This document shows, one piece after another, positions 13,404-18,865 of a DNA stretch of 36,113 bases. A model generated the notes under the pieces. It saw only the letters and a list, made by a program, of their open reading frames with translations. It ran no database searches and was not told the origin of the DNA. A program made the position numbers and the translations under genes. Position 1 is the first letter of the stretch; the number at the start of each line of letters is the position of its first letter. Source of the stretch: an uncultured Prevotella sp. (lineage in GTDB: Bacteria > Bacteroidota > Bacteroidia > Bacteroidales > Bacteroidaceae); assembly GCA_946183985.1 (NCBI GenBank), contig CAMHDT010000005.1, positions 1-36,113 on the forward strand, in the 5' to 3' direction.

Positions 13404-14558
13404 CTATGGTCTGTCCTTCCACCAGTCGTCCTTCTGACGGCAGAGGGCCTGGACGAGGCAGTTCATGGTCTTGCAGTAGGCGACGGTGATCTGGTCGTCG
13501 GCGCGGCGGTAGTGGTAGAGCCAAGGGGTGATGATGAGGAGACGGGAGGCCGCGCAGAGGGAGAGACGGCGGTCGGAGGGGTGGTAGACGGCGGGGAAGC
13601 CATTGTCGTTGATGGTAATGACGGGGAAACCGTCATCGGCGACCGTGCGGATAATGTCTTGTTCGCCCTTGGCGATGCGGGCGGAAACGAGGATGGCGCC
13701 ATTTCTGCTAGCGGCAAGGCAGTTGGCCTTCTGGCAGGGGAAGAGAGGTGCGTCGCGGTGATGGCATACGACGGGGAGAAGGCGGGCAGCGAGGAGACTG
13801 CGGTCGCCGTAGGTGTCGCAGTCGATGTGGCCGTTGGCGATGAGGAGGCGGGCTTGGAGGTCTTGCCAGATGGCATCGTTGAACTGAGAGCGGTGGCACT
13901 CGCGTTGCAGATAGCCCTTGAGGGCGGAGGGGGTGAGGGCAGTGTCAATGCCGCCGCGCTGGGGGGCCATGAGGGCGGTCTGCATACGGAGGAGACGGTT
14001 GCGGGGATTATGACGGATGTATTCGCGCTGTTGTTGTAGTTGCCCTTCGTCCAGTGGCATCACATCGACATAGCCATATTCGAAGAGCGGTGGGCGGCCG
14101 GTAGTGGTTGTGGTGGGTTCTCCCTGCCCTGCTATGGTGGCATCAGGCACGGTCATGCCGGTTATATCCCAGAAGTGGCGGTTGCATCCCTTCTTGAAAC
14201 CGGCGATGACCTGGCCGAGGTGGGTGTCGCGGCCATTGGCGCTGATGAGGGGCTTCCATACCACGAGGATAAAGTGCAGGTGCTCGGGCATGATGACATG
14301 CTCCAGCACCTCGACCATCGGGTAATGAGCCGTGATGCTGGCCAGCAGTTCCTCCTCCACCATCTTACCGATGGACGAGAGGGCAGTATGCGGGGCGGCA
14401 GGGTCGCCGTCGGGCTTGTTGATGTCACCTATTACCTGTCCCAATGGCTGGCGAAACAAGGCGTTCGTCCTAAGGGTGATGTGATAGGTGCCGGAGTGGT
14501 GGTAGTTATTGATTTTGCTACGGCGGCCCATGCGGTGCTGGCCTTGCTGGTATTCCAT
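13404..14558 (-). CDS. REP-associated tyrosine transposase-like (Y1/HUH) protein with long C-terminal, possibly DprA/SLOG-like, extension
   Basis: YHITLRTNALF; HUH motif IMPEHLHFIL; catalytic-Tyr motif REYIRHNPRNR; extension containing AILVSARIAKGEQDIIRTVADDGFPVITINDNGFPAVYHPSDRRLSLCAASRLLIITPW. Confidence 0.85.
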   Translation of the reverse strand: MEYQQGQHRMGRRSKINNYHHSGTYHITLRTNALFRQPLGQVIGDINKPDGDPAAPHTALSSIGKMVEEELLASITAHYPMVEVLEHVIMPEHLHFILVVWKPLISANGRDTHLGQVIAGFKKGCNRHFWDITGMTVPDATIAGQGEPTTTTTGRPPLFEYGYVDVMPLDEGQLQQQREYIRHNPRNRLLRMQTALMAPQRGGIDTALTPSALKGYLQRECHRSQFNDAIWQDLQARLLIANGHIDCDTYGDRSLLAARLLPVVCHHRDAPLFPCQKANCLAASRNGAILVSARIAKGEQDIIRTVADDGFPVITINDNGFPAVYHPSDRRLSLCAASRLLIITPWLYHYRRADDQITVAYCKTMNCLVQALCRQKDDWWKDRP

Positions 14559-14576: not shown

Positions 14577-14612
14577 AAAGCGGCGCACCCGTTTTTTCGG
14601 ATGCGCCGCTTT
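14577..14612 (-). terminator. Rho-independent terminator of the mutAB operon, upstream of the transposase gene
   Basis: Minus strand AAAGCGGCGCA-TCCGAAAAAACGGG-TGCGCCGCTTTTTAAAAAA; 11-bp stem plus inner CCG/CGG, followed by a T tract. Confidence 0.7.
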
Positions 14613-14712: not shown

Positions 14713-14817
14713 GTGATCGCGGGGGCGGGTTCTCCCCGCCTCTCTTGTTCTGTGGTCGCAGGTTCTTCCCGCCTCTCCTGTTCTATGGTCGCAGGTTCTT
14801 CCCGCTCTTCCTGTTCT
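14713..14817. repeat. Short tandem repeat array, three copies (39, 33 and 33 bp)
   Basis: 14713-14751, 14752-14784, 14785-14817; unit GTGGTCGCAGGTTCTTCCCGCCTCTCCTGTTCT; copy 1 has a GGCGGG/CCCGCC palindrome. Confidence 0.8.
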
Positions 14818-14834
14818 CGGAAATCGCGGTGGGG

Positions 14835-17005: not shown

Positions 17006-18865
17006 TTAGATTCCGAGTTTAGCATTGTACGCACGGAGCGTTTCGAGCTGGTTAGACTTAACATGAATGAAGTTCTCAATACCGGCAGCCTTGAGGTCTT
17101 CCGAGCAAGCGGGAGCACCAGCCACGACGAACATGGCGCGGCCGTTGAGATACTGGAAGGCGGGAATGGCATATTCGGCGTACTCATCGTCGCTTGAGCA
17201 GATGACCACGATGTCGGCCTTGGCCTCGAGGGCTGCATCAACACCTTCCTCCACGGTCTTGAAGCCGAGGTTGTCCATGACCTTGTAGCCAGCAGCGGCA
17301 AGGAAGTTGCACGAGAACTGTGCACGGGCCTGTCGCATGGCAAGGTTGCCGATGGTGAGCATAAAGGCGATAGGTTGCTTCTGAGCCTTCTCCGTAGAGA
17401 GGCGCAGGGTCTCGAACTCAGAGGCGAGACGCTCGGTGTTGAGAGTGGGCAGGTCGCCGGTTTCGTGTGTTGCTGTGGCACAGCAACATGCTGAACTGCA
17501 GGGCTGCTTTCCGTCGCTGGTCTCGGTGAAGTTGGGGAACTGGTTGGTGCCCAGAATGAACTCCTTGCGAGTAGCGGCAGCAGCGTGACGCTTGCTGTTG
17601 GAAGTGTTCACGGCATTGGTGATGTTGCCCTTCAGAGCCTCTGCCAGGAAACCACCGGCCTCCTCGATAGCGAGGAACAACTTCCAGCCTTCCTGTGCAA
17701 TGGCATCGGTGAGGTGCTCGATGGTGTATGAGCCGCCCGAAACATCGACCAACTTGTCGAAATGGGACTCCTCCTTCAGCAGCAACTGCTGGTTGCGGGC
17801 AATACGCTCAGCAAACTCCGTAGGCTGCTCATAGGGCTTGTCAAACGGAGTGACGATGATGGAGTCGACATTGGCAATGGCAGCCGACATCGTCTCTGTT
17901 TGTGAACGGAGCAGGTTGACATAAGAGTCGAACAGTGTCTGGTTGTACTCTGATGTGATAGCGCAGACATGCATCTGGCAAGCGCAATCGCACTTGGGCT
18001 CGTATTGCTTCACAATCTGGGCCCATAGCATACGGGCGGCACGGAACTTGGCAATCTCCATGAAATAGTTCTCGCTGACACCCATGTTGAACTTAATGCG
18101 CTTGGCTGCCTCGGTGGCGTCGACGCCAGCCTCGGTCAGGATGTTCATATACTCAGCGCCCCAGGCCAGGGCATAGCCCAGTTCCTGATAGATGTAGGCA
18201 CCTGCATTGTTCAGTGCTACGCTGTTTATGTTGATGCACTTGTAGCCGGGTAGTTCCTTCAGAGCCTCGATGAGCGACTTTGCTTCTGCGAGCACGGGCG
18301 TTACATCCTTTCCCTTCTTCAGAATCTTCTCGATGGGATCGAAATTAATGCTGCCCTTCAGTTCGGCAAGGGGATAGCCTTTTTCCTTGAAGTATGCCAC
18401 CAGAATCTCGGCCAGTTCCACGCAGTGGCGCTGACAGGTGTTGAAGTTCAACTCCACGTATTGCGGTAGGATGCCGTCGAGCAGTGTGGCGATGAGTTCT
18501 TTGCTAAGGTTCTTGCCGGGAATCTTGAACCCCAGTGAGTCGACGCCCTTGTTCAGGATGTCGAGTGCCTTCTTGTTGGCCTCGGCTGCGTCTTCCACCT
18601 TAATGTCTTGGCGGACAAACCACAGGTTGTTGTCTTTCTTGTTGCCACGGACAAACGGAAACTCGCCGGGCAGCGAGTCAACAGCCTTTAGGTTAGCCAG
18701 GTCTTCGCGGCGATAGAAGGGCTGTACGTTGAAACCTTCATTCGTTCTCCACACGAGCCTTTTCTGGAAGTCGGCCCCTTTCAGGTCCACCTCAATCTTG
18801 TCCAGCCACTCCTGTGTGGTGGGCGCAGTAAACTCGGTGAAGAGTTTTTCTTTGTTGTTTGACAT
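17006..18865 (-). CDS. mutA: Methylmalonyl-CoA mutase small (beta) subunit
   Basis: Mutase family sequence ([45 protein letters not shown]); directly upstream of mutB; start at MSNNKEKLF. Confidence 0.95.

Follow-up and report, generated by a model that had tools for sequence, protein, structure and literature searches.

A family of RAYT-like Y1 transposases with a fused DprA-like domain in Prevotella-type bacteria

The window analyzed here, a stretch of 36,113 nucleotides from an uncultured Prevotella sp., is the whole of one contig (C5) of a fragmented genome that is 77% complete. It carries a gene that we read as a chromosomal, domesticated REP-associated tyrosine transposase (RAYT or TnpA_REP) with a DprA-like Rossmann domain at its C-terminus. 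The protein would nick hairpins with its first domain and hold single-stranded DNA (ssDNA) with its second, a reading to which we give a probability of roughly 0.55. The analysis established the two folds, the conservation of key residues in both, vertical inheritance with purifying selection, and an association with hairpin-forming palindromes. The first-pass annotation of the window had been confined to a single gene; that a RAYT with a fused DprA-like domain makes up a whole family goes beyond that account. No description of a RAYT-DprA fusion, including any among Prevotella RAYTs, was found in open-licence PMC papers.

The fusion gene

The gene and its parts lie at the following positions of the window.

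13404..14558, minus strand: RAYT-DprA fusion gene, 384 aa (ATG at 14558, stop codon 13404-13406)
13974..14531, minus strand: Y1/HUH REP-associated tyrosine transposase domain, residues ~10-195 (NF047646 and AlphaFold2 model)
14274..14282, minus strand: HUH motif H93-L94-H95
14019..14021, minus strand: putative catalytic Tyr180 (Y-I-R-H-N-P)
14088..14150, minus strand: variable insert between the HUH and Tyr motifs, of low confidence in the model; site of an in-frame palindrome in half of the relatives
13434..13820, minus strand: predicted DprA-like Rossmann domain, residues ~247-375 (~130 aa; profile, intermediates, AlphaFold2/Foldseek)
13755..13757, minus strand: Arg268, within 1-2 residues of the DprA GSR Arg (HpDprA R52) by alignment
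13662..13664, minus strand: Glu299, aligned with the Asp of the DprA G-I-D motif
13461..13463, minus strand: Asn366, aligned with the Asn of the DprA R-N-R motif

An alternative GTG start at 14588 would give a product of 394 aa. The Y1 and C-terminal motifs that the first-pass annotation had read from this frame, IMPEHLHFIL, REYIRHNPRNR, AILVSARIAKGEQDIIRTVADDGFPVITINDNGF, and YHPSDRRLSLCAASRLLIITPW, were all present letter for letter where it had placed them. The closest relatives of the protein are 48-56% identical across most of its length, and the nearest named one comes from a Prevotella MAG. Because of these relatives, the 67 full-length fusions and the low dN/dS in syntenic orthologs (see below), the frame is confirmed as a real gene and not a chance frame.

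The Y1 domain

The N-terminal part of the protein is, according to its predicted structure, a Y1 HUH domain. The NCBIfam model REP_Tyr_transpos (NF047646) matched residues 82-185 (E 4.9e-6) with 26.5 bits, not reaching its cut-off of 80. A Pfam search of the window protein gave no match to PF01797, which matched 23 of 31 relatives (at E up to 1). Since the scores of the curated models fall below cut-off, we file the fusion as divergent RAYT-like by fold and motifs. An AlphaFold2 model of the whole protein, built on a 3-row alignment, had a pLDDT of about 75-90 at residues 21-130 and was matched by Foldseek to the TnpA structures of ISDra2 and IS608 (E 1e-4, probability 1.00); these matches back the Y1 part only, because the C-terminal pLDDT was mostly below 60. 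Among the 67 fusions M90, P91, H93, H95, and N184 were invariant and Tyr180 was found in 66, and in the model together with this alignment the HUH motif and a single catalytic Tyr lie within the Y1 fold. The Y1 signature had been noted from the sequence, with the proviso that the catalytic His and Tyr be conserved among orthologs, and on both counts it held.

The DprA-like domain

When the window protein alone was searched, no match to its C-terminal part was found in Pfam, NCBIfam, PADLOC, or PHROGs. An AlphaFold2 model of residues 245-384 (4-row alignment; pLDDT 66, pTM 0.62) had strands and helices in alternating order. The top 14 of its 482 Foldseek matches in the PDB were 13 DprA chains, from H. 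pylori, S. pneumoniae, and R. palustris, and ShosA (E 0.012-0.29, probability 0.84-1.00), while the next match below them had a probability of 0.20; the rmsd to DprA was about 5 Å and no E-value was below 0.001. The family profile, searched against 177,635 PDB sequences, placed three DprAs first at E 0.12, followed by one nanobody. The profile was also run in an unbiased way over 396 genomes from the phylum, where it matched standalone proteins of 157-225 aa, with E-values down to 1.6e-13, and directly matched two bona fide PF02481-domain proteins, L072 and L073 (E 6e-6 and 2e-5). Most of the standalone homologs match PF02481 at E 2e-6 to 3e-5, with 21.6-27.6 bits against a gathering score of 29.6; the fusions themselves gave no PF02481 match in Pfam. 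One standalone homolog, L065, also matches the defence-associated DprA-like family PsyrA (E 2.8e-12), a further link to DprA. In hhalign the C-terminal profile and Bacteroidales DprA aligned colinearly along 130 columns, though with weak scores (P 0.005, probability 6.8).

None of these lines is decisive singly, but jointly they are convincing: the model and its Foldseek matches give a DprA-type Rossmann fold, profile and intermediates support it, and we have little doubt that a DprA/SMF-type Rossmann domain makes up the C-terminal ~130 aa. The first-pass annotation had proposed a candidate DprA/SLOG-like Rossmann C-terminus, to be checked for such a match with AlphaFold and Foldseek. Its fold call was essentially right, with Foldseek, the PDB profile search, and the PF02481 intermediates in agreement; the DprA part stands, but the generic SLOG part does not, as the fold is the DprA subtype. 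The suggested role as a signalling enzyme has no backing other than that some members of the fold class bind nucleotides.

The standalone DprA-like proteins were seen in other Bacteroidota (L065-L071, L107) and also on two viral contigs, where they adjoin a dUTPase-like gene. In L072 (106-2130) a protein of 675 aa carries two PF02481 (DprA) stretches in tandem.

G251, L256, E299, P327, L341, and N366 are invariant in the second part of the 67 fusions, and an Arg at the GSR position, or within a residue or two of it, is present in 66. The corresponding Arg of DprA, R52 in H. pylori and R115 in S. pneumoniae, contacts ssDNA (PMC7314969). The first Arg of R-N-R, the G-[GS]-A-x-G signature, and the SAM and WH domains are missing, so DprA functions may have been lost. 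Because of these absences, because the PF02481 gathering score is not reached, and because the genome has its own dprA elsewhere (on C23), the domain is by its sequence DprA-like and not a DprA ortholog.

Distribution and inheritance

A search across Bacteroidales for the same two-domain architecture, as the first pass had suggested, found full-length relatives in many genomes, and 67 full-length members of this conserved family, 306-523 aa long, were collected. The C-terminal profile matched 82 of 150 sampled genomes of the window's genus (77 at E <1e-20), and single genomes had as many as ten matches. As about half of these genomes carry the domain, the fusion family is common among gut and rumen bacteria of the Prevotella type. 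Three copies are present in the window's genome, on C5, on C1 near 61.7 kb and on C20 near 24.8 kb, the latter two sharing about 25-31% aligned identity with the window copy.

Seven related fusion copies form one well-supported clade, and most of them adjoin the same gene for a succinate dehydrogenase-type iron-sulfur subunit (sdhB) in different species; the copies of L127 and L128 have another site in common. The syntenic orthologs are under strong purifying selection in both domains, with a dN/dS in the sdhB-linked clade of 0.073 for the Y1 and 0.055 for the DprA-like part; the values for the window's own, more diverged group are 0.38 and 0.23. No relatives of the fusion were found in 72,556 plasmids, 50,697 phages, or viral contigs, fusion-profile searches of the viral contigs included. 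Vertical inheritance, low copy number, and diverged paralogs are what is expected of a RAYT, while the mobility, near-identical copies, and defined ends of IS200/IS605 elements were not found. The term domesticated, already used in the first pass, fits the syntenic orthologs, the diverged low-copy paralogs, the purifying selection, and the lack of plasmid and phage copies.

No defence genes were seen consistently beside the fusions. In the two named relatives the gene tightly adjoins large genes for GGGN-repeat surface proteins, on both sides in L002 (1-7158) and downstream in L001 (228-3447). A link to adhesin loci was rejected as a general feature, since other fusion copies adjoin unrelated genes.

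Palindromes in and around the fusion genes

Perfect palindromes, with arms of at least 8 and loops of at most 8, were observed 54 times in the fusion genes compared to 7.8 expected from codon-shuffled genes (maximum 13). The HUH and Tyr motifs enclose 38 of the 53 placed palindromes (binomial p 5e-21), which are in frame and mostly 33-42 residues after HUH, and 34 of the 67 genes carry a palindrome in this interval. All of these counts are partly non-independent because many of the sequences are related. Covariation in the stems was set aside as evidence, since the palindromes had been picked for perfection.

The commonest in-gene palindrome, a 21-mer, reads TGTTGC-NNTG-N-CANN-GCAACA, and its copies have outer flanks in common (roughly GTTC..GT / AC.GAAC). 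It was also found on the upstream or downstream side of the same fusion genes, at a distance of up to about 80 bp, and is dispersed in 2-27 copies (one mismatch allowed) in the six genomes having it; the reversed control pattern had no match in those six. The 21-mer was commoner in genomes with the C-terminal domain (21 of 82) than in those without it (6 of 68; Fisher p 0.006). Six of the 27 palindrome-bearing genomes show no fusion, some of them being incomplete assemblies. One genome without a C-terminal-domain match, G885 (82% complete), has eight copies of the 21-nt palindrome; candidate explanations are a RAYT that was lost or left unassembled, or another user of the palindrome.

The window holds one such palindrome outside the fusion gene.

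17468..17488, no strand assigned: palindrome TGTTGCTGTGGCACAGCAACA of 21 nt within the coding region of mutA; a palindrome in the second fusion gene of this genome (C1:62137-62157) is identical

This copy is an in-frame part of a variable linker in mutA, which encodes a methylmalonyl-CoA mutase subunit. We did not accept it as a proven REP insertion: the linker is of variable length and Cys/His-rich in relatives, and one relative is without a shorter linker.

In-gene palindromes, often of the GTAGAGAC type, were present in 10 of 13 non-fused Bacteroidales RAYTs checked. Non-fused RAYTs with in-frame REPs include L020, L022-L023, L026-L030, L032, and L040, many of the GTAGAGAC...GTCTCTAC type. 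RAYTs of subclass 2.4 are known to carry REPs within their genes (PMC6006769). Because in-gene REPs occur both there and in non-fused Bacteroidales RAYTs, the fusions look, as far as their sequences tell, like a DprA-bearing RAYT offshoot with its own palindromes. The palindromes in and beside the fusion genes had been missed in the first pass and are new here.

Hairpins upstream of the window copy

No clean internal palindrome was found in the window's own fusion copy. Of the adjacent palindromes that the first-pass annotation had mentioned, those upstream of the gene are present, but downstream there are AT-rich imperfect ones only.

14577..14612, no strand assigned: hairpin AAAGCGGCGCACCCG / CGGATGCGCCGCTTT, 18 nt upstream of the start codon
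14657..14677, no strand assigned: palindrome TTTTGCGGGGGAACCGCAAAA, its core found once in this genome and four times in G898, there solely a short way upstream of the closest homolog
14725..14823, no strand assigned: three tandem 33-bp units, the first with a GCGGG-TTCTC-CCCGC hairpin, the others degenerate versions of it

One of these upstream hairpin features, TTGCGGGGGAACCGCAA, has a single occurrence in this genome. In the single-contig genome G898 (3.45 Mb) the only exact copies of TTGCGGGGAAACCGCAA, four in number, belong to a tandem array of 64-bp units immediately upstream of the window gene's closest homolog (56% identical). This array, with 5.6 copies of the 64-bp unit carrying the TTGCGGGGAAACCGCAA hairpin (6375-6730 of L126, which is G898:C1:14000-30000), sits between a cas9-like gene and the RAYT-DprA gene. 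A CRISPR array beside the cas9-like gene was considered and rejected, as the whole 64-bp units are 96% identical. Dispersed and gene-flanking REP palindromes were seen in the TGTTGC-type subfamilies; the window's subfamily has upstream hairpins only, and they are undispersed. Its sites resemble an array private to the region upstream of the gene, which may serve autoregulation or recognition in cis.

Relation to known systems

Quentin et al. (2018) described 12 TnpA_Y1 subclasses, the longest of which has a median of 325 aa and occurs in Chromatiales and Alteromonadales; the tails of the long subclasses are DnaA-like, HTH, or unknown, and a few unexpectedly long proteins were discarded as gene fusions or annotation errors (PMC6006769). 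RAYTs of subclass 2.4 have a median of 194 aa, no extension of the core domain and GT[AG]G-footed REPs (PMC6006769), whereas the fusions have a greater length (306-523 aa), a DprA-like domain, and palindromes of the TGTTGC or other types. Subclasses 2.1 and 2.3 are likewise RAYTs with long conserved C-terminal domains, but their tails are DnaA-C/HTH-like or subclass-specific, they are mostly from Proteobacteria, and no REPs were found nearby (PMC6006769).

With DprA/SMF (PF02481; H. pylori DprA 4LJR/5MLL) the fusions have in common the Rossmann core, the GSR-type Arg, the strand-helix order, and the Asn of R-N-R. They differ in being without SAM and WH domains, in keeping R-N-R and G-x-A-x-G-I-D only partly and in being joined to a nuclease. 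PsyrA and ShosA, the DprA-like proteins of the PsyrTA and ShosTA defence systems, share the DprA-like domain, and the standalone homolog L065 matches PsyrA in PADLOC (E 2.8e-12); however, the fusions matched no PADLOC model and none was seen beside a toxin gene. The Y1 HUH fold is shared with the IS200/IS605 transposases IS608 and ISDra2 TnpA, from which the fusions differ by their low-copy diverged paralogs, their syntenic orthologs, the extra C-terminal domain, and the lack of IS signs.

Proposed mechanism and alternatives

Hairpin nicking by the first domain is suggested by E. coli TnpA_REP, which cleaves its cognate single-stranded REP hairpins (PMC8266576), and holding of the flanking strand by the second domain is suggested by DprA, which binds ssDNA and loads RecA (PMC7314969). 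The Y1 domain would recognise its cognate hairpin while the DNA is single-stranded, on the lagging strand or during repair, and Tyr180 would nick or join beside the hairpin, as E. coli TnpA_REP does. The DprA-like domain would grip the flanking ssDNA via the conserved Arg and perhaps dimerise or contact RecA like DprA, RecA recruitment being speculation, and this would keep the cut strand in place for transfer or recombination. The likely substrates would be the palindromes within and next to the gene, which would provide it with recognition sites of its own. We consider it unlikely that the fusion goes further and is a self-contained machine for copying REPs, in which the RAYT domain would nick hairpin ssDNA at its own palindromes, the DprA-like domain would put RecA on the end so released or anneal strands there, and copying would thus proceed by recombination and not by classical transposition. 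If true, the spread of REPs in the absence of a mobile transposase would be accounted for, as would the presence of copies within the transposase gene.

Two other accounts concern what the second domain does. It may be a nucleotide- or ligand-sensing regulator of the SLOG type that switches the nuclease on and off and does not bind ssDNA, a role of the kind proposed for PsyrA/SLOG antitoxins. The PsyrA match of L065, ShosA among the Foldseek matches, and Glu299 and Asn366 as invariant residues of a pocket type speak for it. The fusions, however, match nothing in PADLOC and are not consistently accompanied by defence genes, and the ssDNA-contact Arg of DprA, kept in 66 of 67, fits ssDNA binding; we regard such a regulator as unlikely. 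It is doubtful, too, that the domain is a scaffold for dimerisation or protein contact that has no ligand of its own and leaves all RAYT activity to the Y1 domain. It is appended behind a complete Y1 core, several DprA signature residues are absent, and DprA dimerises via its Rossmann domain (PMC7314969), but the invariant E299, P327, and N366 and the near-invariant Arg suggest a chemical or binding role, and dN/dS is lower in the DprA-like part than in the Y1 part.

That the fusion is the transposase of an active IS200/IS605-like insertion sequence moving its own gene is very improbable. The Y1 fold, the up to 10 C-terminal-domain matches per genome, and the palindromes flanking some of the genes would be expected of such an element, but the copies within the window's genome are diverged, orthologs are syntenic beside sdhB and in L127/L128, and the plasmid, phage, and viral searches gave no match. 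We find it just as hard to believe that generic Rossmann similarity has led to a spurious DprA assignment. The window protein alone matches nothing in Pfam and the profile-profile comparison with Bacteroidales DprA is weak, as such an artefact would have it, but Foldseek ranked DprA above every other Rossmann family, and the PDB profile search, the intermediates, and the direct matches to DprA-domain proteins agree with it.

Implications

DprA-type domains hold single-stranded DNA during recombination. On the preferred reading, a domesticated RAYT with an ssDNA-holding partner domain, the gene unites two ssDNA-handling types of protein in a single chain, namely a domesticated transposase that cuts hairpins and a domain resembling DprA. 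It would be a compact and testable protein, with two catalytic motifs, one putative ssDNA-contact Arg, and defined palindromic candidate substrates. The benefit of RAYTs to their hosts and the spread of REP sequences are open questions, and a conserved RAYT family that includes a DprA-like domain suggests that a missing step is the handling of ssDNA or recombination.
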